Positions 8,958-31,729 of a stretch of 32,154 bases of DNA are shown one piece after another; within the stretch, counting starts at the first letter, position 1, and each line of letters opens with the position of its first letter. The notes under the pieces are model-generated. The model searched no databases, had not been told where the DNA came from, and was given only the letters and a program-made list of their open reading frames with translations. The stretch is from NCBI GenBank assembly GCA_028873515.1, contig JAGWIG010000030.1:1-32154 (forward strand). The letters run 5' to 3'. This stretch comes from Pseudomonadota bacterium. Its GTDB lineage: Bacteria; Pseudomonadota; Gammaproteobacteria; Burkholderiales; REEB80. Position numbers and translations under genes: made by a program.

Positions 8958-9682
8958 GTAAATAAAACCATGTATTAAAACCGGGTATATTATCTTACTG
9001 TGGTATTTTTGGCGACAGATATTGGATTGAGGTTTGTAAAATCAAAACATATGTTTTCTGGAAACTGGTTTTCGGCATGGATCAAGTTGGGATTGAGGTC
9101 CAGGTTAAGGCAGGAGCGGATGGTGTGACAATCTTATCTGTCTGTCGTGAATAATATGGCTGTTGAATTTTCCAGCGAAGAAAAGATGGATCTTTATTAA
9201 TTGAGGCTGAAAGGATTTTGCTGTGTATAGCTGTCAGGGGAAAAATATTTCGGATTGCTTTATTATGGTGGGCGATAATTCAGGGTCTATATAAGATTGA
9301 ATTGTGTTGCTCTGGTTAATGGGATATTAGAAGGGTATGCCGGTTATAGTGTTTAGTTTTTCATGAAATGATATAACAAAGTCATCTATAACCGCTAAGT
9401 CGGGTTTTCTCTGTATTCAGTTAGTTCTGGAAACAGATCATGGCAGGATGATGATGAACGGATGGGCATAAGGTTAATGGATGTCGAATCTCCATATACC
9501 ATTCCCCTGTGATTTTTTGATGATGGCTTGATGGGTCATGCTTTTGGCCGCTCCTTACATCAGGCATGAGGCTTGTCGTGAAAATGATAATCAGAATTAA
9601 GCGGTGTTTACCCCTTATGGATGATTGACCATTCAATAGCCCTTATTTATGGTTGACGTATCAATTAATTGTCAGGAAGAAC
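8958..9682. other. Long intergenic region between purE and the MFS gene
   Basis: About 725 bases between divergent genes, expected to contain the promoters of purEK and of the exporter. No confident gene. A short + frame near 9077-9154 resembles a piece of a hexulose-6-phosphate synthase (see findings). The minus frame at 9421-9636 looks like chance. Confidence 0.4.
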
Positions 9683-11290
9683 ATGCGGTTTGTCAATCAG
9701 GATACTGTTAAAATTTCCAATCACCAGCGTTCATTTCGCGAATCCCTGTTGGCCATGATGGGGCTTTTTTTTGTGGTGATGATGGTGGCTCTGGATCAGA
9801 CTGTTGTTGGTACGGCTTTACCAACTATAGTTGCAGATCTTAAAGGTTTTGATCTATACGCCTGGGTAGCGACAAGTTATTTGCTTACTTCAGTGATTAC
9901 AGTACCCATATTTGGTCGTTTGGGTGATTTTTTTGGCCGCAAGTATTTTGTAGTCGCATCGATAATTATCTTTACCTTGGCTTCAGCCCTGTGTGGGCTT
10001 GCTTCGAGCATGAGTTTTCTTGTCATTGCCCGATCCTTGCAGGGGATCGGTGGAGGAATGCTGGTTGGTACTGCATTTGCCTGTGTTCCGGACTTGTTTC
10101 CTGATCCTCATGCTCGTCTACAGTGGCAAATCATTATCAGTACCGCCTTTGGTCTTGCCAATGCCATAGGTCCCTCCCTCGGGGGGTTCCTAACCCAGTA
10201 TTATGGATGGCGTTCTGTATTTTATGTCAATTTGCCCATTGGCATCTTGAGTCTCTGGTTTGTGTGGCGACATATGCCACATATCAGGAATTCACACCAT
10301 CGGGGCTCTATGTCACTTGACTGGATTGGAGCGCTTCTGATTGCGCTTGTCTTAGGTAGCCTTCAGTTATTTGTTGAATTTGTGCTACGCCAAGGTACGC
10401 ACCTGGTATCAACCGTTTACGCTGTTGTTTGTATTGGGGCAATCATAGGGCTTTTATACCATGAACGTCGTGCTAAACAGCCTGTCTTGCCACTCGAGAT
10501 GTTCAGGGAGCGTGCCCTTTCAGCATTATTCATGTTATCTGTCTGTATCGGATTTATTTTGTTTGCGTGGATGTTTTATCTTCCTCTTATGCTGCAGGGT
10601 GGTTTCGGCCTGTCTCCGAATGCAGCGGGGCTTATCATTACCCCTCTTGTAGTCTGTATTACTGTTGGCTCCATAGCTAGTGGACGCCTCATTACCCGTA
10701 TACCAAGTATATCCATCATCATGAATACAGGCATTGCTTTGCTTATCGCAGCAGGTGTGGGGATGACCGTGCTTGAGCCTGACCGAGGGCATGTATTAAC
10801 CTTGACCTATATGATTGTTGGTGGCTTGGGAATCGGCCTGGTGATGCCGAATCTGACGATTTTTACCCAAGAGCTTGCAGGACGATCGCATCTTGGTATA
10901 GCAACAGCACTTATCCAGTCTTTTCGTATGGTGGGAGGTATGATTGGTACTGCACTGGTTGGATCTGTTGTTAACAGGTTTTATACAAGCAGTGTTTCAG
11001 ATTATCTTGATTTGCATCATGCAAGCGCCTTGAGGACTAGTCTTACTGATCCGCAAATCCTGGTCAATCCTGTTGCCAAGGAGGCACTGAAGGCACATGC
11101 ACAGATCTATCATGTTGATGGAGCTTTACTGATTGACATGGCGCGTCAGTCGCTTATTCATTCGGTTCACGTGAGCCTCATTCTTCCTGTTGGGGCGGCG
11201 ATCGGAGCTTTATGGTTGATGAGGCGGGTTCCTCCTATGAAGCTATCAGGAAATATCAGGCATGTTCCCTTACCAGTGGATGAAACGTGA
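9683..11290 (+). CDS. MFS exporter of the DHA2 (EmrB/QacA) type
   Basis: The ATG at 9683 is preserved behind AGGAAG; a TTG-started longer frame from 9653 is less likely. The 535-residue protein has about 14 membrane segments. Motifs of the DHA2 drug:H+ antiporters are visible: LDQTVVGTALPTIVADL in the first segment, GRLGDFFGRKYF in the first cytoplasmic loop, and SLQGIGGGMLVG. It should export drugs or other toxic compounds using the proton gradient. The stop overlaps the GTG of the MarR gene, so the regulator is co-translated. No membrane fusion (EmrA) partner is present here. The substrate is unknown. Confidence 0.9.
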   Translation: MRFVNQDTVKISNHQRSFRESLLAMMGLFFVVMMVALDQTVVGTALPTIVADLKGFDLYAWVATSYLLTSVITVPIFGRLGDFFGRKYFVVASIIIFTLASALCGLASSMSFLVIARSLQGIGGGMLVGTAFACVPDLFPDPHARLQWQIIISTAFGLANAIGPSLGGFLTQYYGWRSVFYVNLPIGILSLWFVWRHMPHIRNSHHRGSMSLDWIGALLIALVLGSLQLFVEFVLRQGTHLVSTVYAVVCIGAIIGLLYHERRAKQPVLPLEMFRERALSALFMLSVCIGFILFAWMFYLPLMLQGGFGLSPNAAGLIITPLVVCITVGSIASGRLITRIPSISIIMNTGIALLIAAGVGMTVLEPDRGHVLTLTYMIVGGLGIGLVMPNLTIFTQELAGRSHLGIATALIQSFRMVGGMIGTALVGSVVNRFYTSSVSDYLDLHHASALRTSLTDPQILVNPVAKEALKAHAQIYHVDGALLIDMARQSLIHSVHVSLILPVGAAIGALWLMRRVPPMKLSGNIRHVPLPVDET

Positions 11291-16220: not shown

Positions 16221-16838
16221 TCATAATAAAGATAATTCGGTATGATTGGAATGGGCAAGGATCCATACAGCGGCTTCCAGGCGTGACCGTAATTTGAGTT
16301 TTTTTAGAATGTGTTTTACATGAACCTTTACAGTTCCTTCACTTATGTTGAGGGCCCGTCCAATTAATTTATTGCATTGGCCAGTAGCGAGCAAAGACAG
16401 GATTTCCTTTTCACGTGAAGTTAACCCATGATTTTGTATAGGGTTTTGTGATTTCAAAAGTTTTGCGTAAAGGATTTCAACTGATGTATTGATTGTAATT
16501 GTTCCATTTGCACTGGTGTTGTGGGCATGAGGCTGATTTAGGATCTGGGTTTCATCCACGATATGCAGTATCTGGCATGAAGGGACAAGATTGCGTATGG
16601 ATTCCAGCATGTCCTTGTTCTGGAATTCAATCAGTCTGGATGAAATCAGCAGCACATCAGGTTGACATAATTTTGTTAGAAGCACCCCTTCTGTGGCGCA
16701 GTTTGCTTCACCGATAACCTCGAACGAGTGAGATCGCGTAATCTTGTTTCGAAGCTGACTCAAGGATTCATGTTTTTCGATAATGAAGAGTACTCGGTAA
16801 CGTCTGGGTTGTAACAGATTACGTTCGGACAGGTTCAT
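16221..16838 (-). CDS. NarL/LuxR-type regulator with degenerate receiver domain
   Basis: The 205-residue protein has a receiver-like N-terminal half (residues about 14-125) and a LuxR-type helix-turn-helix (about 140-195: LTSREKEILSLLATGQCNKLIG, then SEGTVKVHVKHILKKLKL). The receiver lacks key residues. The usual acidic pair before H23 is replaced by E21-K22. The phosphoacceptor Asp in the PDVxLLD motif is Ser66 (PDVLLISSRL). It therefore probably does not respond to phosphorylation in the usual way. No sensor kinase is adjacent. GGAG precedes the ATG. It is divergent from the small-membrane-protein/permease block and could regulate it, which is inference. Confidence 0.88.
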   Translation of the reverse strand: MNLSERNLLQPRRYRVLFIIEKHESLSQLRNKITRSHSFEVIGEANCATEGVLLTKLCQPDVLLISSRLIEFQNKDMLESIRNLVPSCQILHIVDETQILNQPHAHNTSANGTITINTSVEILYAKLLKSQNPIQNHGLTSREKEILSLLATGQCNKLIGRALNISEGTVKVHVKHILKKLKLRSRLEAAVWILAHSNHTELSLL

Positions 16839-17342: not shown

Positions 17343-17371
17343 TTGACAAAGAAAAATCACCTGCATAGCAT
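17343..17371 (+). promoter_or_regulatory. Candidate sigma70 promoter for the permease block
   Basis: A perfect -35 TTGACA (17343-17348) is followed after 17 bases by TAGCAT (17366-17371), which matches the -10 consensus in four of six positions. Transcription would start near 17378, leaving a leader of about 113 bases before the ATG at 17491. Confidence 0.5.
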
Positions 17372-17490: not shown

Positions 17491-17799
17491 ATGCAGCAAC
17501 GTATGTCTGAACGAATTGAAAGAATGTATCTCGGTGATATCTGGTTTGCTGCGGTGATGATTGCTGCAGTTTGGCTGGCTGTGGGTTTTGTATTTTTTGA
17601 GATGTTCAACTTTCTCAAGGATCCGGTTTTCAGGATTGTCGAAATTGTTGCAGCACTGTTTCTGCTTGTATTTAACTCTTCCTCAATGACTGCAATGATT
17701 CGTCATTATAAGGAAGATAAAGAGTGGATTTATGAACGCGACATCATAAACCTGGATCAGGCCCGTGCAGATGCGGCTAGTTCCAGACAGGCAGCATAG
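17491..17799 (+). CDS. Small membrane protein, two membrane segments
   Basis: The ATG follows AGGAG by six bases, a strong start. The 102-residue protein has two predicted membrane segments (about residues 17-38 and 47-67) and a charged C-terminal tail (HYKEDKEWIYERDIINLDQ) likely in the cytoplasm. I do not recognise a family. It is the first gene of a tight + strand block: the next gene starts seven bases after its stop, then come a 55-aa protein and an APC permease. Its place suggests an accessory or assembly subunit of the transporter, but no direct evidence shows that. Confidence 0.75.
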   Translation: MQQRMSERIERMYLGDIWFAAVMIAAVWLAVGFVFFEMFNFLKDPVFRIVEIVAALFLLVFNSSSMTAMIRHYKEDKEWIYERDIINLDQARADAASSRQAA

Positions 17800-17806
17800 G
17801 GGGGGT

Positions 17807-18193
17807 ATGGCTAAGAATCATTATGTTCCAAAGGTTCAGAGCGGATTCGGTCAGTTTATAGATTGTGTCCTGATACTGGTGCTTGTTTATGCCAGTCTAT
17901 ACGCACCGCTGCTCATGCAGGCTAATTCAGGAAGCAGTGCGGCTAGCAGTTCGGAAAAACCTACCTGGCAATCTTTAAAGCAGAACAGTTTCGAAGCGGG
18001 GCAATGGCAGAAGCTCGGGTATACCCCTGAACAGGCACAGCCCATTATTGAGACCAGGTTTGAATACAGCATAAGTTGGCCCGTTCTTGGCCTCACTGCC
18101 GCAGTCATTATCGGCTATTACTTATTTATGTTGAAGGTTTCTGACAAAGAGTACCGGGAAGTCATCCGGGAAAAATTCGGTGATAGGCCATAG
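17807..18193 (+). CDS. Membrane protein, two membrane segments with a long outer loop
   Basis: The start is the ATG at 17807 behind a GGGGGG Shine-Dalgarno-like run; an earlier in-frame start at 17765 would overlap the previous gene. The 128-residue protein has one membrane segment at about 17-36, a hydrophilic stretch of some 50 residues rich in Ser, Gln and Glu, a second segment at about 90-110, and a basic/acidic tail ending VIREKFGDRP. The loop between segments is probably periplasmic. I do not recognise the family. It is tightly packed between the other small membrane genes. Confidence 0.75.
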   Translation: MAKNHYVPKVQSGFGQFIDCVLILVLVYASLYAPLLMQANSGSSAASSSEKPTWQSLKQNSFEAGQWQKLGYTPEQAQPIIETRFEYSISWPVLGLTAAVIIGYYLFMLKVSDKEYREVIREKFGDRP

Positions 18194-18201
18194 GGGGAAA
18201 C

Positions 18202-18369
18202 ATGGGCTTTTGGCAAATTTTTTCAGATTTATCATGGGCAGTATCAGTGCTCATGGCGGTGTGGATGATTTATGACACTTGGCGTGTCCAACAGGAATAT
18301 GACGAGTCCTTTCTCATGAGTTCGCGAGAAGGTGCAGAGGAACTCTCAGCGAAGGAGACAGATAAATGA
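18202..18369 (+). CDS. Short single-pass membrane protein, 55 aa
   Basis: ATG at 18202 follows AGGGGGAAAC, eight bases after the previous stop. The stop TGA (18367-18369) overlaps the permease ATG (18366-18368), so translation is coupled. The 55 residues begin MGFWQIFSDLSWAVSVLMAV, which together with the next few residues forms one membrane segment (about 7-26), and end in an acidic tail. I know no family. The gene is easily missed because of its size. Good start signals and exact packing make it very likely real; a role as a small transporter subunit is inferred. Confidence 0.7.
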   Translation: MGFWQIFSDLSWAVSVLMAVWMIYDTWRVQQEYDESFLMSSREGAEELSAKETDK

Positions 18370-19757
18370 GTGCACAGGTGATAGAAGCACCCAAACAGCA
18401 CATTTCGTTGAAAAAGGTCTTAAGCCCAATCCATATCTGGGGGCTTGGGGTCGGGATTGTGCTGGTTGGCGAGTATATGGGCTGGAATTTTTCCGTTGCC
18501 AAAGGTGGCGCCCTGGGTTCGCTTATTGCATGCTGGGTTATTGGCCTGCTCTATACTTGCGTGGCCATGATAGATTCAGAAGTAACTTCAACAGTGGCTG
18601 CTGCAGGGGGGCAGTATACTCAGGCCAAGCATATTATCGGGCCCCTTATGGCATTTAATGTCGCACTTTATCTAGTGCTGGCATATACGATGCTGGAAGC
18701 AGCAGATGCGACCGTATTCGGTGATTTACTGCAGGAAGTGGCAGGAAATTTCGGGGTTGCAAATCTTGATCCTCGCCCCTTTGCTTTTTTGTGCATCATG
18801 TTTCTGGCCTGGCTTAACTATCGTGGGGTGTTCATAACCTTGACGTTCAATTTTGTCATTACTGCGTTCGCCTTTGTTGCCATAATACTGGTATTTTTTG
18901 GGGTCGCGCCCTGGTCGCCCGGAGTTGTCTTGCATCATGCGGATCTTATCCATGGCTTACCTTATGGATGGATTGGAATTATTGCTGCTTTTCAGTTTGG
19001 GATGTGGTATTACCTGGGGATTGAGGGCACTTGTCAGGCGGCAGAAGAATGTCGTTCGGCTGCAAGATCCATTCCACTTGGAACCATGAGCGGAATGATT
19101 ACCCTAGTCATTGCTGCTTCTTTAACGTGGTATATCTGTTCCGGTCTTTTGCCCTGGGAATATCTGGGTCAGGCAACGACACCTTTGTATGATGCAGCGA
19201 GAGTGACTAATAGTACCTGGATGCAGGTTGTCATGTTTGTCGCTACGGTGTTTTCTAATCTGGCTTCTGCAAATGGCTGTATTAACGATGCGTCGCGTGC
19301 CTGGTTTTCGCTTTCGCGTGATCGTTATATGCCGCCAGTATTTGGAGCAGTACATCCACGTTACCGCACTCCTTATCGATCGGTCCTGTTTCTGATTCCT
19401 ATTGCTGTATCCTTTGCCTTTACAAACCTTTTGGATCAAATCATTACTTTTTCGATTTTGTCCGGGCTTCTTGGATACACCTTTATGTCGATTAATATGA
19501 TGAGATTTAGGCGGCTGTGGCCATTAGGTTCCATTCATCGCGGCTACATTCATCCATTTCACCCTTTGCCGGCAGTGATGCTTTTCCTGCTGTGTACTAC
19601 GGTCTATTTTGCCACGTATCTTGGTTATGGCAGCCAGCTCCTGGCTATTATGGCGTTCTTTATCATTGCTTCACTTTGGTTCAGTTTGCATCGCTACAAG
19701 TTCGTGAAACGGGGTGACCAATTTACAATGCCTTGGCCAAGACCCAAGGGCTATTAG
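18366..19757 (+). CDS. APC superfamily permease, ethanolamine-permease-like
   Basis: The 463-residue protein has about 12 membrane segments and the APC layout. HIWGLGVGIVLVGEYMGWNF at the N-terminus, AGGQYTQAKHIIGP, YLGIEGTCQAAEECRSAARS and LPWEYLG are close to ethanolamine permease-type transporters (amino acid-polyamine-organocation superfamily). The substrate should be a small amine or amino acid. Because it lies on the same strand a few kilobases upstream of a methylamine-oxidation cluster, methylamine or a methylated amino acid is a fair guess. It is the last member of a tight block with three small membrane proteins, which is unusual for APC carriers that usually act alone. A UspA gene follows 13 bases later. 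Confidence 0.85.
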   Translation: MSAQVIEAPKQHISLKKVLSPIHIWGLGVGIVLVGEYMGWNFSVAKGGALGSLIACWVIGLLYTCVAMIDSEVTSTVAAAGGQYTQAKHIIGPLMAFNVALYLVLAYTMLEAADATVFGDLLQEVAGNFGVANLDPRPFAFLCIMFLAWLNYRGVFITLTFNFVITAFAFVAIILVFFGVAPWSPGVVLHHADLIHGLPYGWIGIIAAFQFGMWYYLGIEGTCQAAEECRSAARSIPLGTMSGMITLVIAASLTWYICSGLLPWEYLGQATTPLYDAARVTNSTWMQVVMFVATVFSNLASANGCINDASRAWFSLSRDRYMPPVFGAVHPRYRTPYRSVLFLIPIAVSFAFTNLLDQIITFSILSGLLGYTFMSINMMRFRRLWPLGSIHRGYIHPFHPLPAVMLFLLCTTVYFATYLGYGSQLLAIMAFFIIASLWFSLHRYKFVKRGDQFTMPWPRPKGY

Positions 19758-19770
19758 ACAAGGAGGAATC

Positions 19771-20205
19771 ATGGACAAGCAGTTGCTATGTGCAACAGAT
19801 GGATCGCATGTTTCGCAAAAAGCGGTGAACTATGCTGTAGGTCTTGCGCATCGGTTGCAGGTGCCAATTACTTTCCTTGTTGTGCATCCGGTTGAGGATG
19901 ATTCATCAATGGATCCGGTTCGTAGTTGGGATGGTAATGTCATTGAGGCAATGGATTGGCAGGTACACAAGGATCTGGCTGATGCACAGTCTATAGCAAG
20001 GGAAGCAGGGTTGACCCAGGTAACCCTTGCTGCGATTGGAAGTCATGAGGTTGCTGAAGCGATTGTGAAGTATGCTGAAGGGCATGGCCTGGATCATATC
20101 CTTGTAGGATCTACAGGGAGATCGGGCGTTGCCAAAATGATGTTGGGTTCAGTTGCTTCACGAGTAGTGACTTTGGCGCATTGCCCGGTTACTGTGGTTC
20201 GCTGA
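19771..20205 (+). CDS. Universal stress protein, UspA family
   Basis: The ATG at 19771 follows AAGGAGG, a near-perfect Shine-Dalgarno, and gives 144 residues. A longer frame from 19714 would overlap the permease and is rejected. The protein starts LLCATDGSHVSQKAV and ends with GSTGRSGVAKMMLGSVAS...CPVTVV, the ATP-binding G-2X-G-9X-G(S/T) motif of Usp domains. Usp proteins are cytoplasmic and sometimes bind transporters, as with TeaD and the ectoine TRAP system in Halomonas. Here the gene ends the permease block just before a strong terminator, which suggests a regulatory link to the transporter. Confidence 0.9.
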   Translation: MDKQLLCATDGSHVSQKAVNYAVGLAHRLQVPITFLVVHPVEDDSSMDPVRSWDGNVIEAMDWQVHKDLADAQSIAREAGLTQVTLAAIGSHEVAEAIVKYAEGHGLDHILVGSTGRSGVAKMMLGSVASRVVTLAHCPVTVVR

Positions 20206-20216
20206 TTTGAAACTCA

Positions 20217-20241
20217 GGCCCGCGTTTTGCGGGCCTTTTTT
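20217..20241 (+). terminator. Strong intrinsic terminator after uspA
   Basis: GGCCCGC (20217-20223) pairs with GCGGGCC (20229-20235) around a GTTTT loop, followed by six T (20236-20241). This is a textbook rho-independent terminator, 11 bases after the UspA stop. It separates the permease block from the next two genes, although the following ATG is only 12 bases beyond the T run, so read-through could still feed it. Confidence 0.9.
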
Positions 20242-20253
20242 CAGGGATGATTT

Positions 20254-20943
20254 ATGCATCCATTTGTTCTGCTTCTACTTGTGTTGCTGTTTATCTATCT
20301 GGCCTGGCGATTTGTTAAGGATCAGAATACTTCCAAAAGAGAAAGAGAATCCCTTTTTGATGATTGTCTGGATCTTTTCGAAGCTTATAAAGTACGTAAG
20401 ACGCCCAGCGGATATCCAGAGCTAGTAGGTCGCTATAAGTCAGTCCCTTTCAGGCTTGAACTTATTTTTGATGCAGCAGCTTTTCGTAAACTTCCTTCGT
20501 TATGGCTAATAGTAAATCTTGAAGCCCCTTTGCAGACTGAAGGGATTGTCGATTATCTTGTAAGGCCGGATAATACAGAATTCTATTCGCCAGGATGGCT
20601 GCTGCCGATGAGCCTGCCCATTCCTGAATCCTGGCCCCAGCATGCAATTCTTCGTACTGACACTCCTGATCTGGCATCCTGGCTAGAGCAGCTTGTAGGT
20701 GTACAGCAATTATTTGAAAACTCCCGTATGAAAGAGCTTTCCTTTGGAAGCTCAGGAGTCCGGCTGGTCAATCAGGTAAAGGAAGCTAATCGTGCAACCT
20801 ATACAACCATGCGTTATGTGAAGTTCGATATGTCAGTAATAGAAAGAGAATCAGTAAGGGAGTTGCTTGAAAGGGCAATCAGTTTTCATATGGCCCTGGA
20901 TCGCATAACTCGGGAAAAAAACGAGGTCTGCATGTATGCCTAA
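20254..20943 (+). CDS. Membrane-anchored hypothetical protein, 229 aa
   Basis: The ATG follows AGGGATGA right after the terminator. The protein starts with one hydrophobic segment (residues 3-20, MHPFVLLLLVLLFIYLAW), which could be an anchor with the rest in the cytoplasm because Arg and Lys follow it. The remaining 200 residues are a soluble mixed alpha/beta domain without motifs I recognise. It overlaps the next gene by eight bases, so they are co-translated. It has no promoter of its own visible; the terminator lies immediately before its ribosome binding site. Confidence 0.7.
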   Translation: MHPFVLLLLVLLFIYLAWRFVKDQNTSKRERESLFDDCLDLFEAYKVRKTPSGYPELVGRYKSVPFRLELIFDAAAFRKLPSLWLIVNLEAPLQTEGIVDYLVRPDNTEFYSPGWLLPMSLPIPESWPQHAILRTDTPDLASWLEQLVGVQQLFENSRMKELSFGSSGVRLVNQVKEANRATYTTMRYVKFDMSVIERESVRELLERAISFHMALDRITREKNEVCMYA

Positions 20944-21232
20944 GCCGCTTAATCCGTTTCTGGTGATGTTGGCTGCAATCATTTTGCCCGGCATGGGACA
21001 GGTATTAAACGGGCAGCCTACGCGCGGCCTTGCCATGGATGCCTTCATGATTGTTCTCGGTGTTGTAACCTTACATTTTGCCCATCCGGGAGCCGGATTT
21101 ATTGCAAGTCATGCAGGTGGGGTGTTTGTGTATGCGATTAGTGTCATGGATGCGTATAAGTTTGCACGTCTTCGTTATGAAACATGGAACCGTGAATCTG
21201 ATTCATCCGCATCCGGTATTAAAGATACATAG
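20936..21232 (+). CDS. Small membrane protein, 98 aa
   Basis: The ATG at 20936 lies inside the end of the preceding gene. The 98-residue product has two or three hydrophobic segments and begins with NPFLVMLAAIILPGMGQVLNGQPTRGL. The PGxGQ..NGQ..RGL pattern recalls the turn found in TM2-like and DUF5683-like small membrane proteins. Function is unknown. It is the last gene before the methylamine operon and is followed by a very AT-rich gap. Confidence 0.65.
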   Translation: MPKPLNPFLVMLAAIILPGMGQVLNGQPTRGLAMDAFMIVLGVVTLHFAHPGAGFIASHAGGVFVYAISVMDAYKFARLRYETWNRESDSSASGIKDT

Positions 21233-21499: not shown

Positions 21500-22741
21500 A
21501 TGCCATTACGTCTTCTCCGTTTTGCATTAAGCCGCAGGCATCCTGAGCCACGTATGTTTACTGAGCGTGACAAGCTCGGTAAAACCTACGACGTCGTGAT
21601 TATAGGAGGCGGGGGGCATGGTCTTGCCGCAGCCTATTATCTTGCAAAAAATCACGGCATAACCAACGTATGCGTCCTGGAAAAGAATTATCTGGGTGGC
21701 GGAAATACTGGAAGGAATACGACTATTGTCCGCTCTAATTACCTTACTCCGGAGGGAGTTGCTTTCTATGACCGCAGCTTAAAATTGTTTGAGGATCTGT
21801 CACAGGATTTTGACCTTAATCTTTTTTATTCTACTCGTGGACATTTTACCCTGGCACATACTGATTCAGCGATGCGCACTATGCGTTGGCGTGCTGAGGT
21901 CAATAAGCATCTGGGCATTGAATCTGAAGTCGTTGGCCGTGATTTTATCAAGCGCATGGTTCCAGAAATGGATCTTGAGTGTTCGGGGCATTCGCCTATA
22001 CAGGGTGCGTTATACCACAAACCTGGCGCTGTTGCCCGACATGATGCGGTGGCGTGGGGATATGGGCGTGGTGCAGACATGCGTGGAGTGGAAATTTTTC
22101 AGAAAACTGAAGTGACTGGGATTGATGTTGAAAACGGAAAAGTGAAAGGTGTAGGCACAAGTAGAGGATATATCTCTACACGGAAGGTTTTATGTGCGGT
22201 GGCAGGGTCGACGCCCCGGATTACAAAAATGGTCGGAATTCGTACCCCAATAGTTATTCAACCTCTTCAGGCATGTGTAACTGAACCGATAAAGCCATGG
22301 CTTGATACCATAATCGTTTCTGGAAGCCTGCATGTGTACGTTTCTCAGTCTGACCGTGGCGAACTGGTAATGGGCGCATCTGTTGATCCATATGAAATCC
22401 ACTCTACTCGTTCAACGCTGGATTTTACTGAAGGTCTTTGCGCGCACATGCTTGACATGTTTCCATTCCTTTCCAATACAAAAGTCAATAGACAATGGGC
22501 AGGTATGGCAGACATGACGCCAGATTTTGCACCTATCATGGGCAAGACTCCGATTGAGGGATTTTACATTGATGCAGGGTGGGGTACTTGGGGTTTCAAG
22601 GCAACACCGGTGTCTGGCGAAACGATGTCACATACGGTCGCCAATGACGTGGATCATGAATTAATCCACACCTTCCGTCTGTCACGGTTCAAGGAACTGG
22701 ATCTGACGGGCGAAAAAGGTGCGGCTTCTGTAGGACATTAA
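21500..22741 (+). CDS. mgdA: N-methylglutamate dehydrogenase subunit A (SoxB-like)
   Basis: The 413-residue protein is homologous to the beta subunit of heterotetrameric sarcosine oxidase. GGGGHGLAAAYYLA at residues 36-49 is the FAD-binding Rossmann turn. GRNTTIVRSNYL (71-82) and RHDAVAW (180-186) follow; His181 aligns with the histidine that covalently holds FMN in SoxB. WAGMADMTPDFAPIMGKTP and GWGTWGFKATP near the C-terminus match the oxidase family. It should oxidise the secondary amine of N-methylglutamate to release glutamate and a C1 unit. AGGAAAG precedes the ATG. It starts an eight-gene operon. Dehydrogenase rather than sarcosine oxidase is inferred from the gmaS and mgs neighbours. 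Confidence 0.92.
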   Translation: MPLRLLRFALSRRHPEPRMFTERDKLGKTYDVVIIGGGGHGLAAAYYLAKNHGITNVCVLEKNYLGGGNTGRNTTIVRSNYLTPEGVAFYDRSLKLFEDLSQDFDLNLFYSTRGHFTLAHTDSAMRTMRWRAEVNKHLGIESEVVGRDFIKRMVPEMDLECSGHSPIQGALYHKPGAVARHDAVAWGYGRGADMRGVEIFQKTEVTGIDVENGKVKGVGTSRGYISTRKVLCAVAGSTPRITKMVGIRTPIVIQPLQACVTEPIKPWLDTIIVSGSLHVYVSQSDRGELVMGASVDPYEIHSTRSTLDFTEGLCAHMLDMFPFLSNTKVNRQWAGMADMTPDFAPIMGKTPIEGFYIDAGWGTWGFKATPVSGETMSHTVANDVDHELIHTFRLSRFKELDLTGEKGAASVGH

Positions 22742-22743: not shown

Positions 22744-23004
22744 ATGAAACTGCTGACATGCCCAATTAATGGAACAAGACCACTGCAGGAATTTACCTGG
22801 GGTGGTGAATACCGGGTAATGCCTGATCCGGACCAGGTAAGCGATGAGGAATGGGCCGATTATGTGTTCAACCGTAACGGTGCGCCAGGTATCAAGAAGG
22901 AGTGGTGGCATCACACTGCTTCTGGTATCTGGTTTATTGCCGAGCGGGATACCGAGCGCGATGTCGTGTTGCGTACCTATCTATATAGCGGGAAAGATGA
23001 GTGA
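22744..23004 (+). CDS. mgdB: N-methylglutamate dehydrogenase subunit B (SoxD-like)
   Basis: The 86-residue protein is a delta-subunit homologue of sarcosine oxidase: a CP..G start, EFTWGGE, DEEWADYVFNRN and WFIAERDT match the family. In classical SoxD, four residues (C6, C9, H59, C63) bind zinc. Here C6 is kept but the second Cys is Asn (CPING) and the late Cys is missing, so zinc binding is doubtful. That may be normal for the N-methylglutamate dehydrogenase subgroup. It lies two bases after mgdA and overlaps mgdC by one base (TGATG). Confidence 0.88.
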   Translation: MKLLTCPINGTRPLQEFTWGGEYRVMPDPDQVSDEEWADYVFNRNGAPGIKKEWWHHTASGIWFIAERDTERDVVLRTYLYSGKDE

Positions 23005-25958
23005 TGACAGATTTGAACAATCGGCAGTCGGTAGATGCTGCACTGGAAAAAAATCGGTTGCCCAGGCAGGCTGGAGAATGGATCGAGCGTAATCAACGTG
23101 TGTATTTTACGTTTGAAGGCAAGACCTATGGCGGATTTGTTGGTGATACCGTCAGCAGTGCCATTGCTGCATCTGGAAATAAAGTAATGGGTCGTAGCTT
23201 CAAATATCACAGATCGCGCGGCATCCTGTCCTTGTCGAACCATGATATCAATACCATGATGCAGGACGAGAATGATCCTACAATCCGTGCGGATGTTGTT
23301 TCTGCCAAGGAAGGGATGGAACTCCGTTCTGTTAACACCTTTGGTGGACTGGAATCGGATCGTGGCCGTTTTCTGAACCTTTTTGCCAGATTTTTGCCAG
23401 CAGGATTTTATTACAAGACTTTTCATACTCCGAAATGGTTGTTTCCGATGTGGGAAAAGGTTTTCCGTACGCTCACAGGCCTTGGGGTGGTTAATGTTGA
23501 TTCACCCCGGATACGTACTCCAAAACGTTATGATTTTACAGATGTTCTGGTGATCGGTGCGGGACCTTCTGGTCTTTCAGCGGCCATAGCTGCTGCCAAG
23601 GAAGGTGCTAAAGTGGTTTTGGTGGATGAGAATGCCAGACCAGGTGGAACCCTTACTTATGACCATGGCGGGCTGGATGAAAATCTTGAACTGCTTGGAA
23701 GGCTGCTTGATGAAATAAAGCGTAACCCGGGAATTCAGCTTCGCCCAGGGACAGTGGCGACAGGATATTATGCGGATAACTGGGTTCCGCTTGTAGACGA
23801 AGTGCGCATGACCAAGATGCGTGCGAAAACCGTTATTGTTGCATCCGGTGCTTTCGAACAGCCCTGTGTATTTCGGAATAATGATCTACCAGGAGTCATG
23901 TTAGCTTCAGCCGCACAGAGACTTGTTAAGCGTTATGCTGTTCGCCCTGGACGCAACCATGTCATTGTGACTTCCAACAGTGCGGGATACCGAGCTGCAC
24001 TTGATATGGCCAGCAGTGGCGCATCAATCGCAGCAATCGTGGATTTTCGCCCTGAGGGCGAACCTAGCACATGGCATGAGCGTGCGGTCGGTCTTGGCAT
24101 CCGAATCTTGCCTGGATACTGCATTTATGAGGCAATACCCCAGGAGGATAAGCTGGGCGTATCTGCAGCGATTGCAAGAAAACTTTCCTCCACGGGAGAA
24201 ACAGAAGAATCAGGCAGCCAGACTATTTCTTGCGATACCATCTTGATGGCTGTCGGTTATGCTCCTGCTGCGAACCTGCTTTATCAGGCAGGCACGAAAA
24301 TGCGCTATACCCATGAAACCGAACAGTTCGTTCCCGAGGCTCTGCCAGACAATGTTTTTGCTTGCGGGCGCGTAAACGGGGTTTACACCGTTCCTGCACA
24401 GCTTCTTGATGGTGATCGTGCAGGGCTTGCTGCTGCTGAAAAGGCAGGTTGCCCAGTAAGCCGTAAGGCTTCAGCCGTGCCGGCTGAAGCAGTGAGCCCA
24501 AGTCATCCCTATCCTGTTATTGCTCATCCAAAAGGTAAGAATTTTGTCGATTTTGATGAAGATCTGCATTTGCGTGATTTTTATGTATCCGTTCAGGAAG
24601 CGTTTGACAATATCGAACTCATGAAACGTTTTACAACTGTCGGCATGGGGCCCTCGCAAGGAAAACATTCAAATATGAATGCAATCCGTATTCTTGCAAG
24701 GCTAACCGGAAAAAGTATTGCTGAAGTCGGGACAACAACGGCCAGGCCTTTCTTTCATCCAGTGAAACTTTCCCATCTCGCCGGACGGGGTTTTTCTCCT
24801 GAGCGGTTCACGCCCATGCATCACCGGCATGCTGAACTTGGGGCTGTATTCATGGATGCCGGAAACTGGAAACGCCCAGAATATTATCGATGTGAAGGAA
24901 TGTCCCGATTAGAGACCATACGTATGGAAGTACGCAATGTTCGAACTAACGTCGGCATGATTGATGTTGGAACTTTAGGAAAGATCGAGGTTTTTGGACC
25001 TGACTCTGTTAGGTTCATTGAACGGATGTATACCGGACTGTTTGCTAAACAGGCAGTGGGTACAACTCGATATGCCCTAGGCCTTGATGAATCAGGTGTA
25101 ATTATTGACGATGGGGTAGTAGGCCGACTTGCAGACGAGCACTTTTTTGTAACCACTACTACTACCGGTTCAGCGCAGGTCTATCGCGAAATGAACCGAT
25201 GGGCTCTTTTGTGGGGAATGGATGTAGGTATTGTCAATGCTACAGGCTATATGGCTGCGATGAACCTTGCCGGACCCAAATCCCGTTCGATATTGGCGCC
25301 TCACTGCAACATTGATATCAGCGATGAGTCTGTGCCCTATCTTGCATTGAGAACCTGCCAAATCGGAGAGGTTCTGGCACGCATCATGCGGGTAGGGTTT
25401 GTAGGTGAGTTAGGCTATGAAATTCATGTGCCTTCCGAAAATGGTCTTTATGTCTGGGATCTACTGATGAAGGAAGGTGAGAAACATGGCATTCATCCTT
25501 TTGGTGTAGAAGCCCAACGTGTCCTGCGTCTGGAAAAGGGTCATATCATAGTCAGTCAGGATACCGACGGCTTGACCAATCCGTTTGATGCAGCGTGTGG
25601 TTGGGCAGTCAAGATGAACAAACCTTTTTTTATTGGGCAACGAAGTTTGAAAATTGCCCAGAATATGGAAAGAAAACAGGTTCTAGCAGGTTTCTCTCTT
25701 TCCAGGGGATATGTCGGTGAGCTCCCTAAAGAATCACACTTAGTGATTGAGGGCGGTGAGATCGCAGGTCGAATCACGAGCATTACAGATTCCGAAGCAT
25801 TGGGGCGGGTGATTGGGCTCTGTTTTGTGCGTCCTGACATGAATGTTATAGGACAAGCTATCCAGTTTCGTCTATCAGATGGTTCAATGGTGCCCGCGGA
25901 AATTGTGGCTACTCCCTTTTATGATCCAGAAGGATTGCGCCAGAAAGTGCAAGGATAA
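23004..25958 (+). CDS. mgdC: N-methylglutamate dehydrogenase subunit C (SoxA-like)
   Basis: The 984-residue protein is the large subunit. A GTG one codon upstream (23001) is an alternative start, but the ATG at 23004 fits a TGATG junction with mgdB. Residues about 30-110 match the cysteine-free ferredoxin-like N-terminal domain of SoxA (GDTVSSAIAASG, GRSFKYHRSRGI). Near residues 180-205 is a dinucleotide-binding fold (VIGAGPSGLSAAIAAA), probably for NAD. Residues about 590-975 form a GCV_T/aminomethyltransferase domain that binds tetrahydrofolate (NVGMIDVGTLGKIEV, GELGYEIHV, LRLEKGH). It may pass the C1 unit to folate as well as release formaldehyde. Length is normal for the family. Confidence 0.94.
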   Translation: MTDLNNRQSVDAALEKNRLPRQAGEWIERNQRVYFTFEGKTYGGFVGDTVSSAIAASGNKVMGRSFKYHRSRGILSLSNHDINTMMQDENDPTIRADVVSAKEGMELRSVNTFGGLESDRGRFLNLFARFLPAGFYYKTFHTPKWLFPMWEKVFRTLTGLGVVNVDSPRIRTPKRYDFTDVLVIGAGPSGLSAAIAAAKEGAKVVLVDENARPGGTLTYDHGGLDENLELLGRLLDEIKRNPGIQLRPGTVATGYYADNWVPLVDEVRMTKMRAKTVIVASGAFEQPCVFRNNDLPGVMLASAAQRLVKRYAVRPGRNHVIVTSNSAGYRAALDMASSGASIAAIVDFRPEGEPSTWHERAVGLGIRILPGYCIYEAIPQEDKLGVSAAIARKLSSTGETEESGSQTISCDTILMAVGYAPAANLLYQAGTKMRYTHETEQFVPEALPDNVFACGRVNGVYTVPAQLLDGDRAGLAAAEKAGCPVSRKASAVPAEAVSPSHPYPVIAHPKGKNFVDFDEDLHLRDFYVSVQEAFDNIELMKRFTTVGMGPSQGKHSNMNAIRILARLTGKSIAEVGTTTARPFFHPVKLSHLAGRGFSPERFTPMHHRHAELGAVFMDAGNWKRPEYYRCEGMSRLETIRMEVRNVRTNVGMIDVGTLGKIEVFGPDSVRFIERMYTGLFAKQAVGTTRYALGLDESGVIIDDGVVGRLADEHFFVTTTTTGSAQVYREMNRWALLWGMDVGIVNATGYMAAMNLAGPKSRSILAPHCNIDISDESVPYLALRTCQIGEVLARIMRVGFVGELGYEIHVPSENGLYVWDLLMKEGEKHGIHPFGVEAQRVLRLEKGHIIVSQDTDGLTNPFDAACGWAVKMNKPFFIGQRSLKIAQNMERKQVLAGFSLSRGYVGELPKESHLVIEGGEIAGRITSITDSEALGRVIGLCFVRPDMNVIGQAIQFRLSDGSMVPAEIVATPFYDPEGLRQKVQG

Positions 25959-25961: not shown

Positions 25962-26627
25962 ATGAGACAAAGCCCGATGGAATTTCTCTTGACTCGCCTT
26001 GGTGTCCGATTTGGCGAGGCAGGAAGTATGCGAATAGCGTTGTCAGCTGCTGATGAAAAATACGAATCCTCATGTATCGAGAATTTGGGGTTGGCTGATA
26101 CCACATTTCTTTATCGTATAGGGCTCAAGGGACCTAAAGCGGGGCAATTTCTGGTTTCTTTAGGATTGCCTGTACCACAAGAGCCGAATCATTGGGAGCC
26201 TTTGGATGGGGGAGGTTATTTGATGCGGCTTGGCATGTCAGAATTTTTTCTCGAGGATGGCCCATCAGGTACGTTCGTTAAATATATCAGTGAAAAGCTT
26301 GGGCCGGATGGTCATGCCGGGGTTTATCCAGTGCGGCGTCAGGATGCAGGTATGGTCTTGTGCGGAAAAATGCAGAATGAGCTATTGGCCCAGACATGTA
26401 ATGTGAATTTCGCAGGCATGGATGGTTCAGATCGAATCGTTGTGATGACATCGATGACAGGGGTAAGTGTTGTAATGATACAAGCAGAAGTAAATGGGGA
26501 ACCATCGTGGAAGATTTGGTGCGATGGAACATTTGGACATTATTTATGGGACACACTTCTTGAGATTGCTTTGGAAACGGGGGGCGGCGTTATAGGCTGT
26601 GCCAGGCTTTACCCGGAACTTGGCTGA
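25962..26627 (+). CDS. mgdD: N-methylglutamate dehydrogenase subunit D (SoxG-like)
   Basis: The 221-residue protein matches the sarcosine oxidase gamma subunit: a single small GcvT-like fold used structurally. It starts with SPMEFLL, and carries GLKGPKAGQFLVSLGLPVP and GGGYLMRLGMSEFFLEDG. It follows mgdC by three bases with AAGGA before its ATG. Sequence conservation in this subunit is low in general, so position in the operon is part of the evidence. Confidence 0.85.
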   Translation: MRQSPMEFLLTRLGVRFGEAGSMRIALSAADEKYESSCIENLGLADTTFLYRIGLKGPKAGQFLVSLGLPVPQEPNHWEPLDGGGYLMRLGMSEFFLEDGPSGTFVKYISEKLGPDGHAGVYPVRRQDAGMVLCGKMQNELLAQTCNVNFAGMDGSDRIVVMTSMTGVSVVMIQAEVNGEPSWKIWCDGTFGHYLWDTLLEIALETGGGVIGCARLYPELG

Positions 26628-26667: not shown

Positions 26668-28035
26668 ATGACAGCTGCAATGAAGCTGGATCATAAGCTG
26701 ACCAGCGTAGGGGACGCCAAGAAGTGGCTTGAAGCCAACAACGTCAAGTATGTATTGGCTCAGTTTGTGGATATCCATGGATCGGCCAAGACAAAAGCAG
26801 TACCGGCAACACATTTTGAAGACATTCTAACTGCAGGTGCGGGGTTTGCAGCCTTCGCCATCTGGGGTATGGGAATTGGGCCTCATGGCGCCGATTATAT
26901 GGCAAGAGGTGACTTGGGTACGCTATCCCTTATCCCCTGGATGCCGGGCTATGCCCGGATAGTTTGTGATGGGTATGTTAATGAAGCTCCACATCAGTAC
27001 TGTTCCCGCGTGATTCTTAAAAATCAGATCAAAAGACTCTCTGAGCGGGGTTTAACCATGTTTACAGGCATCGAACCTGAATTTTCGCTTCTGGTTCGCG
27101 ATCCTGATGGCAAGATACGCCCCCATCTCGAGTCCGATTGTTTGGCAAAACCTTGTTATGATTACAAGGGATTGGCTCGAACCAATGAATTTCTTGATAA
27201 ACTGACCCAGTCCCTGATTGAAACCGGCATTGATGTTTACCAAATTGATCATGAGGATGCAAATGGTCAATTTGAAATCAACTATACCTATACTGACTGT
27301 CTGACTTCAGCCGATCACTATATATTCTTTAAAATGGCGGCGTCAGAAATTGCCAATTCTCTTGGTCTTATCTGTACTTTCATGCCGAAGCCTTTTTCAA
27401 ATCTTCCTGGTAATGGTACGCATATGCATATTTCCATGGGGGATGCAAAACATGGCAACCTGTTCCAGGATAAAAAGGATCCTCAGGGACTTGATCTTTC
27501 ACCCATGGCCTATCATTTTCTAGGCGGAATTCTGAAACATGCAAGAGCTCTGGCTGCTCTTGCATGCCCAAGCATCAATTCATACAAGCGTCTGGTAGTT
27601 GGACGATCATTGACTGGGGCAACATGGGCTCCAGCCTATATCAGTTACGGCAATAACAACCGTTCGACAATGGTGCGGATCCCGCCTGGCCGGTTGGAAC
27701 TGCGTCTTCCAGATGGTAGTACCAATCCATATCTTGCGACTGCCGCACTCATTGCTGCAGGCCTTGATGGACTGGATAACAAGATTGATCCGGGCATGGC
27801 ACAAAGTGACAACCTCTACAATTATTCCTCCGCTCAGCTCAAGGCCAAGAAGATTGGCCTGTTACCACAGAATCTCAATGAAGCGCTTGTTGCCCTCGAA
27901 AGCGACAAGACTATTACCAGGGCTCTAGGAGGAGATTTTGTAGGTGAGTTTATAGATCTTAAACGGATGGAATGGGTTGATTATCAACGTCACGTTTCTG
28001 ATTGGGAAGTGAACCGTTATCTGGAGTTTTTCTGA
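26668..28035 (+). CDS. gmaS: Gamma-glutamylmethylamide synthetase
   Basis: The 455-residue enzyme belongs to the glutamine synthetase family. [52 protein letters not shown] and [17 protein letters not shown] are the catalytic-domain motifs. Its divergence from ordinary GlnA and its place between mgd and mgs identify it as GmaS, which ligates methylamine to the gamma-carboxyl of glutamate with ATP, the first step of the pathway. CAGGAGA precedes the ATG. It lies 40 bases after mgdD. A plain GlnT-type glutamine synthetase is the alternative, but context makes that unlikely. Confidence 0.92.
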
Positions 28036-28054: not shown

Positions 28055-28954
28055 ATGTGTGGAATCGTTGGTTTGCTCATTAAGAATCCAGCCATGCGTG
28101 ATGAGCTTGGGGAGCTTATGCTCCCTATGCTCATCGGAATGACCGAACGTGGCCCGGATTCAGCTGGGCTTGCCGTATTTGGAGACCGAATCTCAAAGGG
28201 AAAGGTTAAATTCAATCTCTTTGCGACCAGTGCCGATTTCGACTGGAATTTATTCGAAAAAGCATTTGATAGCCATTTTGGCAGTATTGCTGATTTGACT
28301 ATCAAAGGCCGCCATGCGGTTTTGTCCACGACAGTCATATGGGAATCAGTGCGGGATTGGCTTGTTCATTCTTATCGGCGTGAATTAACCATCCTGTGTG
28401 TCGGGAGCAGCATGGATATATACAAGGATATCGGCACCCCAGGGCAAGTTGCGGAGCGTTACGGTTTTAAAAACTTGCATGGCAGCCATGTGGTCGGCCA
28501 TACAAGAATGGCGACTGAATCAGCTGTTACACCCCAACATGCTCATCCTTTTACAGCAGGGCATGATTTTTGCCTTGTGCATAATGGATCCTTGTCAAAT
28601 CCAAACAGTATCCGCCGAAAGCTTGAGCCTCTTGGTATCCATTTTGATACGGATAATGATACCGAAGCTGCCTGCCGTTATCTGGAATGGCGTTTGCGTG
28701 AGGGAGACACACTTGAACAGGCAGTCCAATCTGGTTTTGAGGAACAGGATGGGTTTTATACCTTTTTGATGGGGACAGAAAACAAGCTCGCTCTAGTGCG
28801 AGATGCTTTTGCATGTAAACCTGCAGTGGTTGCTGAGAATGATGATTATGTAGCCATTTCTTCTGAATTCCGCTCGCTTGCCCGCTTGCCGGATATAAAG
28901 AATGCTCGATTGTTCGAGCCAGCCCCAGAGGAGTTGTATGTATGGACAATTTAG
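28055..28954 (+). CDS. mgsA: N-methylglutamate synthase subunit A (glutamine amidotransferase class II)
   Basis: The 299-residue protein starts MCGIVGLL, with Cys2 as the N-terminal nucleophile after Met removal. TERGPDSAGLAVFGD, HTRMATESAVTPQHAHPF and LVHNGSLSNP are the class II amidotransferase motifs, as in the amidohydrolase domain of glutamate synthase. It should hydrolyse gamma-glutamylmethylamide and pass on methylamine. GAGAGGAAG precedes the ATG. It overlaps mgsB by 13 bases. Confidence 0.93.
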   Translation: MCGIVGLLIKNPAMRDELGELMLPMLIGMTERGPDSAGLAVFGDRISKGKVKFNLFATSADFDWNLFEKAFDSHFGSIADLTIKGRHAVLSTTVIWESVRDWLVHSYRRELTILCVGSSMDIYKDIGTPGQVAERYGFKNLHGSHVVGHTRMATESAVTPQHAHPFTAGHDFCLVHNGSLSNPNSIRRKLEPLGIHFDTDNDTEAACRYLEWRLREGDTLEQAVQSGFEEQDGFYTFLMGTENKLALVRDAFACKPAVVAENDDYVAISSEFRSLARLPDIKNARLFEPAPEELYVWTI

Positions 28955-29664
28955 CCCGCAAGAACAGTGATGGAAAGGAAACCCTGTTGTTTGATTTATC
29001 GCAGACTACCGTCCGCGATATGAATCAGTTCCTGCATCATAATCTGGATAAATCGAATGTAAGCAATATCCGCATTATCCACCCTGATGGGGCCCACAGT
29101 ATCGCTGTGGGATTGGAGGTGCCTGTAAATATTGAAATTGAGGGTCATGCCGGATATTTCTGTGCCGGAATGAATAAGCAGGCCAATGTCACCATAAAAG
29201 GTAATGTTGGCTGGTCTGTTGCTGAAAATATCATGTCAGGCATGGTGCGTGTCAAGGGGTATGCATCGGAATGTGCTGGAGCATCAGGCCATGGCGGCAC
29301 GCTAATTATCGAACGTGATGCAAGTCTGCGCTGTGGGATTTCCATGAAAGGCGTAGATATTATCGTTGGGGGGTCTGTCGGTAATTTTTCTGCGTTCATG
29401 GCTCAGGCCGGTCATCTGGTCGTGTGTGGTGATGCAGGAGATGGATTGGGCGACTCTATTTATGAAGCAATAATTTATGTGCGTGGCAAAATCAAGTCGT
29501 TAGGCGCTGATGCGCGTATTGAACCTTTAACAGATGAAGATCATAAGGTATTGGCAAAATTACTTGCCCTTGCAGGGTTCAAACACGATACGAAAGAGTT
29601 CAAGCGGGTGGCTTCTGCTCGCCAACTCTATCACTGGAATGCTGACGCCAATCAGGAGTATTAA
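28942..29664 (+). CDS. mgsB: N-methylglutamate synthase subunit B (GXGXG protein)
   Basis: The 240-residue protein matches the GXGXG right-handed beta-helix domain of the glutamate synthase large subunit: GHAGYFCAGMNKQANVTIKG, GHGGTLIIERDAS, GGSVGNFSAF and GDAGDGLGDSIYEA. The repeated glycine-rich turns are plain. It probably holds the amidotransferase and synthase subunits together and helps channel the amine. It starts inside mgsA and ends one base before mgsC. Confidence 0.9.
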   Translation: MDNLARKNSDGKETLLFDLSQTTVRDMNQFLHHNLDKSNVSNIRIIHPDGAHSIAVGLEVPVNIEIEGHAGYFCAGMNKQANVTIKGNVGWSVAENIMSGMVRVKGYASECAGASGHGGTLIIERDASLRCGISMKGVDIIVGGSVGNFSAFMAQAGHLVVCGDAGDGLGDSIYEAIIYVRGKIKSLGADARIEPLTDEDHKVLAKLLALAGFKHDTKEFKRVASARQLYHWNADANQEY

Positions 29665-29665
29665 G

Positions 29666-31012: not shown

Positions 31013-31090
31013 TCTGTACGCTTTTAATTGGCAGGATGGGGCCTTCTTGATATAGTAAGTTGGCCTTTCCTGTCATTTAATGGAAGTTGT

Positions 31091-31729
31091 ATGAATCAAG
31101 AAGAGCGATCGTCAATTTTAGCTGAAAGCGAGCCAGCTGGTCTTGAACAGTATATAGGGCGTACAATACGTGATCTGCGCCTGAAAAACCGGCTAACCAT
31201 TGCTGATGTTGCAGCGAAAGCGTGCATCAGCCGCGGGATGCTATCGAAGGTTGAAAATGGTCAGACCTCTACAAGTCTTGATACCCTGAATCGCATTTGC
31301 CAGGCGTTTGGAATTACCCTTTCACGTCTTTTTAAACAGTATAACATTCCAGCTGGTGGAGCCCAGCATGTACGAAAAGGTGAAGGGATGGAAGTGGTGC
31401 GGGCTGGAACACGCATGGGGCATACCTACCGGTTATTGGCCTATGATCTTGGCCCCAAGAAGGTTTTTGAACCTTTTCTGATTAGCATGGATGACCAGTC
31501 TGAAGTGTTTGGTACCTTTGAACACCCTGGCACAGAATTTATTTATATGCTGGAAGGTAAAATTGAATACCGACATGGGCAGCATACTTATGTGTTGACA
31601 CCGGGCGATTCACTCATGTTTGATGGCAATATTGTACATGGGCCTGAACAGCTTATCGATGTACCCATCCGTTTTCTGGCATTGATCATCTATGGTGAGG
31701 ATTATGATGGAAGTCTGTCATCTGAATGA
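31091..31729 (+). CDS. XRE family regulator with cupin domain
   Basis: The ATG at 31091 (GGAAG upstream) gives 212 residues; a longer frame from 31028 is less likely. Residues about 20-80 are an XRE helix-turn-helix (IRDLRLKNRLTIADVAAKA, SRGMLSKVENGQTSTSLDTL). The C-terminal part (about 120-205) is a cupin: PGTEFIYMLEGKIEYRHG, YVLTPGDSLMFDGNIVHG, the sensor fold of MerR-like small-molecule regulators such as PuuR. It starts 78 bases after mgsC on the same strand and probably controls the methylamine operon in response to a pathway metabolite. Confidence 0.88.
   Translation: MNQEERSSILAESEPAGLEQYIGRTIRDLRLKNRLTIADVAAKACISRGMLSKVENGQTSTSLDTLNRICQAFGITLSRLFKQYNIPAGGAQHVRKGEGMEVVRAGTRMGHTYRLLAYDLGPKKVFEPFLISMDDQSEVFGTFEHPGTEFIYMLEGKIEYRHGQHTYVLTPGDSLMFDGNIVHGPEQLIDVPIRFLALIIYGEDYDGSLSSE

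Follow-up and report, generated by a model that had tools for sequence, protein, structure and literature searches.

We analysed a stretch of 32,154 nucleotides from a Pseudomonadota bacterium (GTDB Burkholderiales, REEB80; assembly GCA_028873515.1, contig JAGWIG010000030.1, positions 1-32,154 of the forward strand), hereafter the window, in which an APC permease gene is embedded among five genes for smaller proteins, here called S1, S2, S3, O6 and O7, and is followed by the genes of the N-methylglutamate (NMG) pathway. This six-gene block is real and conserved, it is obligate in the samples that we searched, and it is tied to methylamine use. Its conservation was followed with profiles built from the open reading frames (ORFs) of 81 loci, namely the window's own locus and the 80 closest of 400 confirmed permease relatives from species-representative genomes. 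As this set is biased to the permease clade, searches of 398 genomes of the phylum and of 72,556 plasmid records served as the less biased tests. The window contains the following features:

17491-17799, plus strand: S1, 102 amino acids, profile match in 80 of the 81 loci
17807-18193, plus strand: S2, 128 amino acids, in 81 of 81 loci
18202-18369, plus strand: S3, 55 amino acids, in 81 of 81 loci
18366-19757, plus strand: APC permease, 463 amino acids, PF13520
19771-20205, plus strand: UspA-family protein, 144 amino acids, optional, in 23 of 81 loci
20216-20236, plus strand: terminator-like hairpin (stem and T run) between the UspA gene and O6
20254-20943, plus strand: O6, 229 amino acids, in 79 of 81 loci, N-terminal transmembrane (TM) anchor and predicted TtfA/CCDC47 fold
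20936-21232, plus strand: O7, 98 amino acids, in 76 of 81 loci
21500-22741, 22744-23004, 23001-25958 and 25962-26627, plus strand: mgdABCD (N-methylglutamate dehydrogenase), mgdA and mgdB assigned by family, mgdC and mgdD by order
26668-28035, plus strand: gmaS (gamma-glutamylmethylamide synthetase), TIGR03105 with 611 bits at a cut-off of 470
28055-28954, 28942-29664 and, for MgsC, within the frame 29534-31012, plus strand: mgsABC (N-methylglutamate synthase), mgsA assigned by family, mgsB and mgsC by order

S1 and S2 are separated by 7 bases and S2 and S3 by 8, S3 and the permease gene overlap in an ATGA, and the UspA gene follows after 13 bases. The coordinates thus bear out the packing of S1, S2, S3, permease, UspA and terminator upstream of a methylamine operon from which a sequence-only reading of the window had proposed a multi-subunit amine transporter. 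That reading drew the unit as the permease, the three small proteins and UspA; the small proteins and the permease do form a unit, but UspA is optional and two further members had been missed, O6, which starts 17 bases past the hairpin, and O7, which overlaps O6 by 8 bases. Once both are counted, the block ends at 21232. The UspA protein is a clear member of its family (PF00582, 93.3 bits at a Pfam cut-off of 24) and was rejected as a core member of the block on account of its presence in only 23 of the 81 loci.

When genes were ordered by their stop codons, the order S1-S2-S3-permease-O6-O7 was found in all 81 loci, as far as the contigs reach (ordering by the start of the longest ORF made eight of them look irregular). 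All profile misses (S1 in L028; O6 in L033 and L064; O7 in L001, L024, L033, L062 and L064) occurred where the contig or locus breaks off with the gene incomplete, L028 starting 0.7 kb before the permease. None of the small proteins is conserved in fewer than 76 of the 81 loci, and for this reason the possibility that the small genes are chance ORFs was rejected.

In the phylum sample the S2 profile matched 15 genomes, one of which (G360; E 6.6e-4, 16 bits, in a frame of 931 amino acids) was judged spurious. A permease search (E≤1e-60, 66-100% identity) returned exactly the remaining 14 of 398 genomes, and the O6 profile returned the same 14, O6 being found only with the block. On plasmids, the 22 records with S2 were also the ones with a permease of 64-75% identity; the next plasmid permease is annotated as an ethanolamine permease and is about 30% identical, no record lay between 30% and 64% among the 40 best matches, and the other 216 plasmid records with a permease match had no S2 at E≤0.01. 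Across 321 genomes of the class, S1 was found in the window's own genome and in five others, four of them with the whole block (including L151), while the contig of the fifth ends about 0.4 kb past S1. No uncut case of one partner without another was encountered among S1, S2, the permease and O6, which were searched as such, or in the fetched neighbourhoods on which the counts for S3 and O7 rest. Occurrence of the small proteins mostly without the permease, the finding that the sequence-only reading had named as speaking against it, was therefore not observed. By record titles, the block is found in the familiar methylotroph genera Hyphomicrobium, Methylophaga, Methyloversatilis and Paracoccus, and also in rhizobia and Labrys (two of the entries, L002 and G312, appear to be one record).

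The spacing seen in the window is typical of the loci, with median gaps of 10 bases between S1 and S2 and 9 between S2 and S3, a 4-base overlap before the permease and 1 base between O6 and O7. Before O6 the median gap is 99 bases. The hairpin of the window has 9 pairs, 7 of them G-C, followed by a run of T; a terminator scan of the whole window gave seven sites where 6.3 were expected, the remaining six being limited to 3 or 4 G-C pairs. Strong hairpins (at least 9 pairs, at least 7 of them G-C) were present in 41 of 70 gaps before O6, compared with a mean of 0.96 and a maximum of 4 in 50 shuffles, the loci sharing ancestry and not amounting to 70 independent cases. With a weaker criterion a hairpin was found in 59 of 74 such gaps, 22 of them with a T-rich tail. 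Partial termination or protection of the 3' end would be the simplest reading, resulting in less O6 and O7 than transporter proteins, and such lower amounts would fit a role of this pair in assembly or regulation.

Upstream, a LuxR/GerE-type regulator gene (16221-16838, minus strand) is divergent from S1, and a sigma-70-like site before S1 (17343-17371) is not above chance, 17 such sites having been found in comparison to 13.7 expected. A gene for a regulator with helix-turn-helix and cupin domains (31028-31729) lies directly 3' of mgsC and likely regulates the methylamine genes.

None of the window's S1, S2, S3, O6 and O7 proteins has a match above the curated cut-offs of Pfam or NCBIfam. Hydropathy predicts two TM-like stretches in S1 (about 19-35 and 45-61), two in S2 (about 20-36 and 93-109) with a loop of 50-56 residues in between, a single one in S3 and two to three in O7. 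Many of the most conserved residues of the small proteins sit in the tails or, for S2, in the loop: S1 has the motif fNtas..AM..HY.eDk..iYg.DI..lD past its second TM stretch, W54, W67, L70 and G71 of the S2 loop are invariant in 26 aligned members, S3 ends in a conserved L.SSREG, and O7 carries LPG.GQvlN....R. The structure model of S2 was too weak for a fold search (predicted local distance difference test score, pLDDT, of 75; predicted template modelling score, pTM, of 0.39), and its sequence profile had no match at E≤1 among PDB sequences. A Pfam scan of 26 members each of S1, S2, O6 and O7, and of the window protein for S3, returned weak and scattered matches: among the 26 S1 members, five matched DUF4153 (lowest E 1.9e-4) and six matched fatty acid desaturase (lowest E 0.0015); two of the 26 S2 members matched BCCT (lowest E 2.5e-4); of the 26 O7 members, 16 matched DUF5683 (lowest E 4.9e-5, for the window protein, under the cut-off and over 23 residues) and 17 matched DUF6677 (lowest E 0.0039); and for O6, five families were each matched by one member (lowest E 0.071). 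We took these as matches of hydrophobic stretches. Two families that become relevant with the structure of O6 were absent, the Asterix family (which we take to be PF03669) from the weak Pfam listings of the 26 O7 members, and the CCDC47 family (presumably PF07946) from those at E≤1 of the 26 O6 members.

The permease itself is well above the Pfam cut-off for PF13520 (98.4 bits at a cut-off of 27; residues 28-449) and is the single match to this family in its genome. Its best NCBIfam match is the ethanolamine permease TIGR00908, at 187.3 bits under the equivalog cut-off of 381.75, and the permeases of the block form a discrete clade related to ethanolamine permeases, with GE(Y/F)MGWN in the first TM helix. 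G35, E36, G39, W40 and N41 are kept in all 81 permeases, and the first four are common to two ethanolamine permeases as well. The nearest solved carrier by sequence is GkApcT (5oqt; E 6.2e-21; residues 10-434 of 463), whose first-helix residues Thr43 and Gly44 bind the carboxylate of the amino acid (PMC5803215; this and the other articles cited here by PMC number were available in part) and align to V34 and G35, immediately before E36. An acidic residue at this site would suit a small cationic amine without a carboxylate. Two Hyphomicrobium loci (L046, 4020-7359; L048, 6001-8807) have two tandem permease copies between S3 and O6, which look as if one accessory set served two carriers. In L151 the permease (~9197-10600) reads in two overlapping frames, either by frameshift or by sequencing error, and may be broken or misread.

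A confident model was obtained for O6 (pLDDT 92.6, pTM 0.88), with a membrane anchor and a domain. Its best structural match (VIA) was TtfA (Z 11.7, root mean square deviation (rmsd) 3.9 over 157 residues, 10% identity), together with translocon chains of 7TM3, 9I78 and 6W6L (Z 11.4, 10.8 and 9.5; rmsd 4.7 over 211, 4.6 over 199 and 4.2 over 183 residues), and the next row followed at Z 7.1. Going by 9I78 and its paper (PMC12572126), the translocon chains would be CCDC47, a protein with one TM helix, a globular domain and latch helices that is elsewhere complexed with the small protein Asterix (PMC12572126). TtfA forms a complex with the transporter MmpL3 as its accessory protein (PMC6593404). 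Both precedents help a multipass membrane protein or its assembly, and we found no text naming TtfA and CCDC47 together.

The NMG genes downstream of the block were assigned partly by family, MgdA resembling the sarcosine oxidase beta subunit (TIGR01373, 488 bits, under the cut-off of 529), MgdB belonging to the SoxD family (PF04267) and MgsA having a class II GATase domain; MgdC, MgdD, MgsB and MgsC were assigned from gene order and from their recurrence with the NMG genes identified by family. NMG genes were found within flanks of up to 6 kb in 52 of the 81 loci. We searched the whole genomes of the 29 non-own loci without NMG genes in the flank and of L021, and 27 of these 30 have a GmaS-family gene at E≤1e-80, judged by the GmaS match itself. 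Besides the window's own genome, the phylum sample contains 13 genomes with the block; in 11 of them GmaS lies in the stretch that was fetched, and in the remaining two about 15 kb off on the same contig and on another contig, respectively. At E≤1e-100, GmaS was found in 11 of 14 block genomes versus 26 of 384 block-less ones, and in the three block genomes missed at this threshold GmaS scored 334-335 bits and lay inside the fetched stretch. The link to methylamine that the sequence-only reading had drawn from the place upstream of a methylamine operon is well supported; of the co-occurrence with gmaS for which it had proposed to look, one direction holds, most block genomes carrying GmaS, and the other does not, as GmaS also exists without the block. 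A search for methylamine dehydrogenase (PF06433) gave no match in 18 block genomes nor in any of 14 controls and is uninformative.

On plasmid pAMI6 of Paracoccus aminophilus JCM 7686 (L131) the block lies back to back with mgsABC and gmaS, all five accessory proteins being annotated as "hypothetical protein"; the available part of a paper treating the NMG operons of this strain does not mention it (PMC4543880). The methylamine region of pAMI6 also has a second gene annotated as an APC family permease (2737-4542). In M. universalis FAM5 grown on methylamine, NMG genes and "co-clustered conserved proteins" were up 6-10-fold (PMC5023235). The block is a fair candidate for these proteins because the cluster order of FAM5, mgdABCD-gmaS-mgsABC (PMC8292978), ends with mgsABC and the block of strain EHg5 (L014) follows 3' of mgsC; the gene numbers in the table of the FAM5 study, however, would place mgdA after mgsC (PMC5023235).

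What we consider probable is that the block encodes an importer made of several components that takes up methylamine or a closely related primary amine. That the six proteins act as one functional unit is almost certain in our view, methylamine or a close primary amine is the likely substrate, and it is rather likely, slightly less so than the substrate, that S1-S3 are physical subunits. In the mechanism that we propose, S1, S2, S3, the permease, O6 and O7 would be an obligate unit in which the permease acts as a secondary carrier for methylamine, or for a closely related primary amine that has no carboxylate, and feeds the NMG pathway. S1-S3, with five predicted TM stretches in sum, would be packed against the permease and might confer stability, affinity or gating. 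O6 and O7, which lie behind the hairpin and are probably less abundant, would act as a pair in the assembly, stabilisation or regulation of the multipass permease complex. A bolder version, which we hold to be rather unlikely, is that the six-protein importer comes with a bacterial equivalent of the eukaryotic PAT intramembrane chaperone, encoded in the block and dedicated to this transporter, with O6 bringing the CCDC47 fold and O7 taking the place of Asterix.

Several observations weigh against this importer reading. Most of the 27 GmaS-family matches are only about 40% identical to the GmaS of the window, a value that is also that of alphaproteobacterial GmaS beside mgsABC, and some of them may be other type III glutamine synthetases. 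No GmaS was found at E≤1e-80 in the block genomes G403, G422 and G423; one of these three is the isolate draft of Paracoccus sp. IB05 (L077), in which a contig might be missing or the transporter might serve another purpose. Conversely, 26 of the 384 block-less genomes have GmaS at the cut-off, and in 10 of 11 fetched block-less loci gmaS lies with mgsABC, in several also with mgd, one having gmaS alone. For the predicted fold of O6, Foldseek returned nothing at E≤0.001 (best 0.0047) and the O6 profile had no match at E≤1 among PDB sequences, the likeness being structural only. In FAM5 the q-values of the NMG genes are 0.65-0.75, an induction that is not statistically firm, the block genes are unnamed in the available table, and homologues of urea and ammonium transporters respond to methylamine as well (PMC5023235). 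Finally, the Amt protein of a gmaS-mgsABC-amt operon is described as the inner-membrane methylamine transporter of Pseudomonas sp. C5pp (PMC8292978). Given the existence of GmaS without the block and of an Amt named as a methylamine transporter, the block is not the sole supply route for the NMG pathway.

An Amt gene is found near the NMG genes in 5 of the 11 block-less loci (L122 and L125 by homology; L124, L126 and L128 also by Pfam, PF00909), near 1 of the 81 block loci and near none of 13 further fetched block loci. The contrast between 5/11 and 1/81 (Fisher p 5e-5) is a lead only, as the 11 loci were picked by hand from the 26 block-less GmaS genomes and were examined with longer flanks than the 81. 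It suggests two ways of methylamine entry, the block and Amt. Pseudomonas sp. C5pp uses methylamine as a nitrogen source (PMC8292978), and Ruegeria pomeroyi, for which a figure legend lists amtB (PMC5520151), uses it as a nitrogen source only (PMC13390433); it is interesting to speculate whether the block serves the use of methylamine as carbon source and Amt its use as nitrogen source. The window's own genome has two Amt genes elsewhere (C157:172530-173711 and C237:43141-44280), and the NMG operon of the block-less locus L120 is preceded, at a distance of about 1.4 kb, by a different APC permease (583-2352; PF13520, 226 bits).

Alternatively, the permease might be a complete carrier, with S1-S3, O6 and O7 as factors for its assembly, stability or turnover outside the working transporter. 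We regard this as possible though doubtful. APC carriers normally act alone or with one partner, and the fold predicted for O6 is that of an assembly factor or transporter partner, which the hairpin sets apart, together with O7, in many loci. Moreover, GkApcT without the small protein MgtS kept its initial rate and showed a lower total transport (PMC5803215). Yet S1-S3 are packed as tightly and present as constantly as the permease, and five dedicated factors would be unusual for a carrier of ordinary length.

That the block is a transporter of another substrate, be it ethanolamine, dimethyl- or trimethylamine or one of the intermediates gamma-glutamylmethylamide and N-methylglutamate, seems improbable to us, even if the closest named relatives of the permease are ethanolamine permeases (TIGR00908), the flanks of 29 of the 81 loci lack NMG genes and three genomes have no GmaS match. 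The Azospirillum protein with an ethanolamine permease annotation sits with eutBC whereas the block clade sits with NMG genes, the identity between the two is about 30%, and E36 at the carboxylate site speaks against intermediates that are amino acids. Very improbable, finally, is a transceptor in which the permease would sense external amine and the small proteins would relay the signal with little bulk transport. Several membrane proteins with charged tails, the UspA of some loci and the LuxR-type regulator gene at 16221-16838 would suit such a sensor, but the genes common to the 81 loci, which are the block and the NMG genes, include no regulator or kinase gene, and the permease keeps a conserved, carrier-like site in its first TM helix.

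No published description of the block was found in a search of mainly open-access literature. Several known systems share single traits with the importer proposed here. The ethanolamine permease Eat (TIGR00908) belongs to the APC family, shares the acidic residue of the first TM helix within a GE(Y/F)xGW motif and has, in the Azospirillum case, an amine-catabolic neighbourhood. It is, however, only about 30% identical to the permease of the block, which reaches half of the TIGR00908 cut-off; Eat plasmid records are without S2, and the Azospirillum gene lies beside eutBC (ethanolamine ammonia-lyase) whereas the permease of the window has NMG genes downstream. In the heteromeric SLC7-SLC3 transporters an APC carrier is combined with an obligatory single-TM partner that has a large glucosidase-like outer domain. 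The partners in the block are instead several, measure 55-229 amino acids and have no glycosidase match in Pfam or NCBIfam. In GkApcT-MgtS (PDB 5OQT, 6F34) the small single-TM protein MgtS packs on TM5 of the APC carrier (PMC5803215), so that binding of a small TM partner by an APC carrier has a precedent, but MgtS originated from E. coli, the expression host, while the three small genes of the block are dedicated and fixed neighbours.

As for O6, TtfA (PDB 6T84; Z 11.7 over 157 residues) offers the precedent of an accessory protein complexed with a bacterial transporter (PMC6593404), but its partner MmpL3 is a lipid exporter, the carrier beside O6 is an APC permease, and no PDB profile match links the two. 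Like CCDC47, the O6 model combines a single TM helix with a globular domain (Z 9.5-11.4), and CCDC47 is found with the small membrane partner Asterix in the PAT complex, a chaperone complex for multipass proteins (PMC12572126). CCDC47 is, however, eukaryotic and has latch helices at the ribosome and Sec61, while O6 is found only in the block and the CCDC47 sequence family was not among its Pfam matches at E≤1. Amt (PF00909), finally, is the named methylamine transporter beside gmaS-mgsABC in Pseudomonas sp. C5pp and, in the literature available to us, the only one found named for an NMG cluster (PMC8292978); it belongs to an unrelated family and has no accessory block.

Besides Amt, the block represents a second, concrete and testable candidate for a methylamine transporter, and the comparison of block and Amt clusters would make it testable whether methylamine serves as a carbon or as a nitrogen source. 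If the proposed importer is confirmed, it would demonstrate that bacteria can build an obligate machine of many parts around an APC carrier, and the block would offer a compact bacterial system for studying how the TtfA/CCDC47 fold serves a multipass membrane protein.

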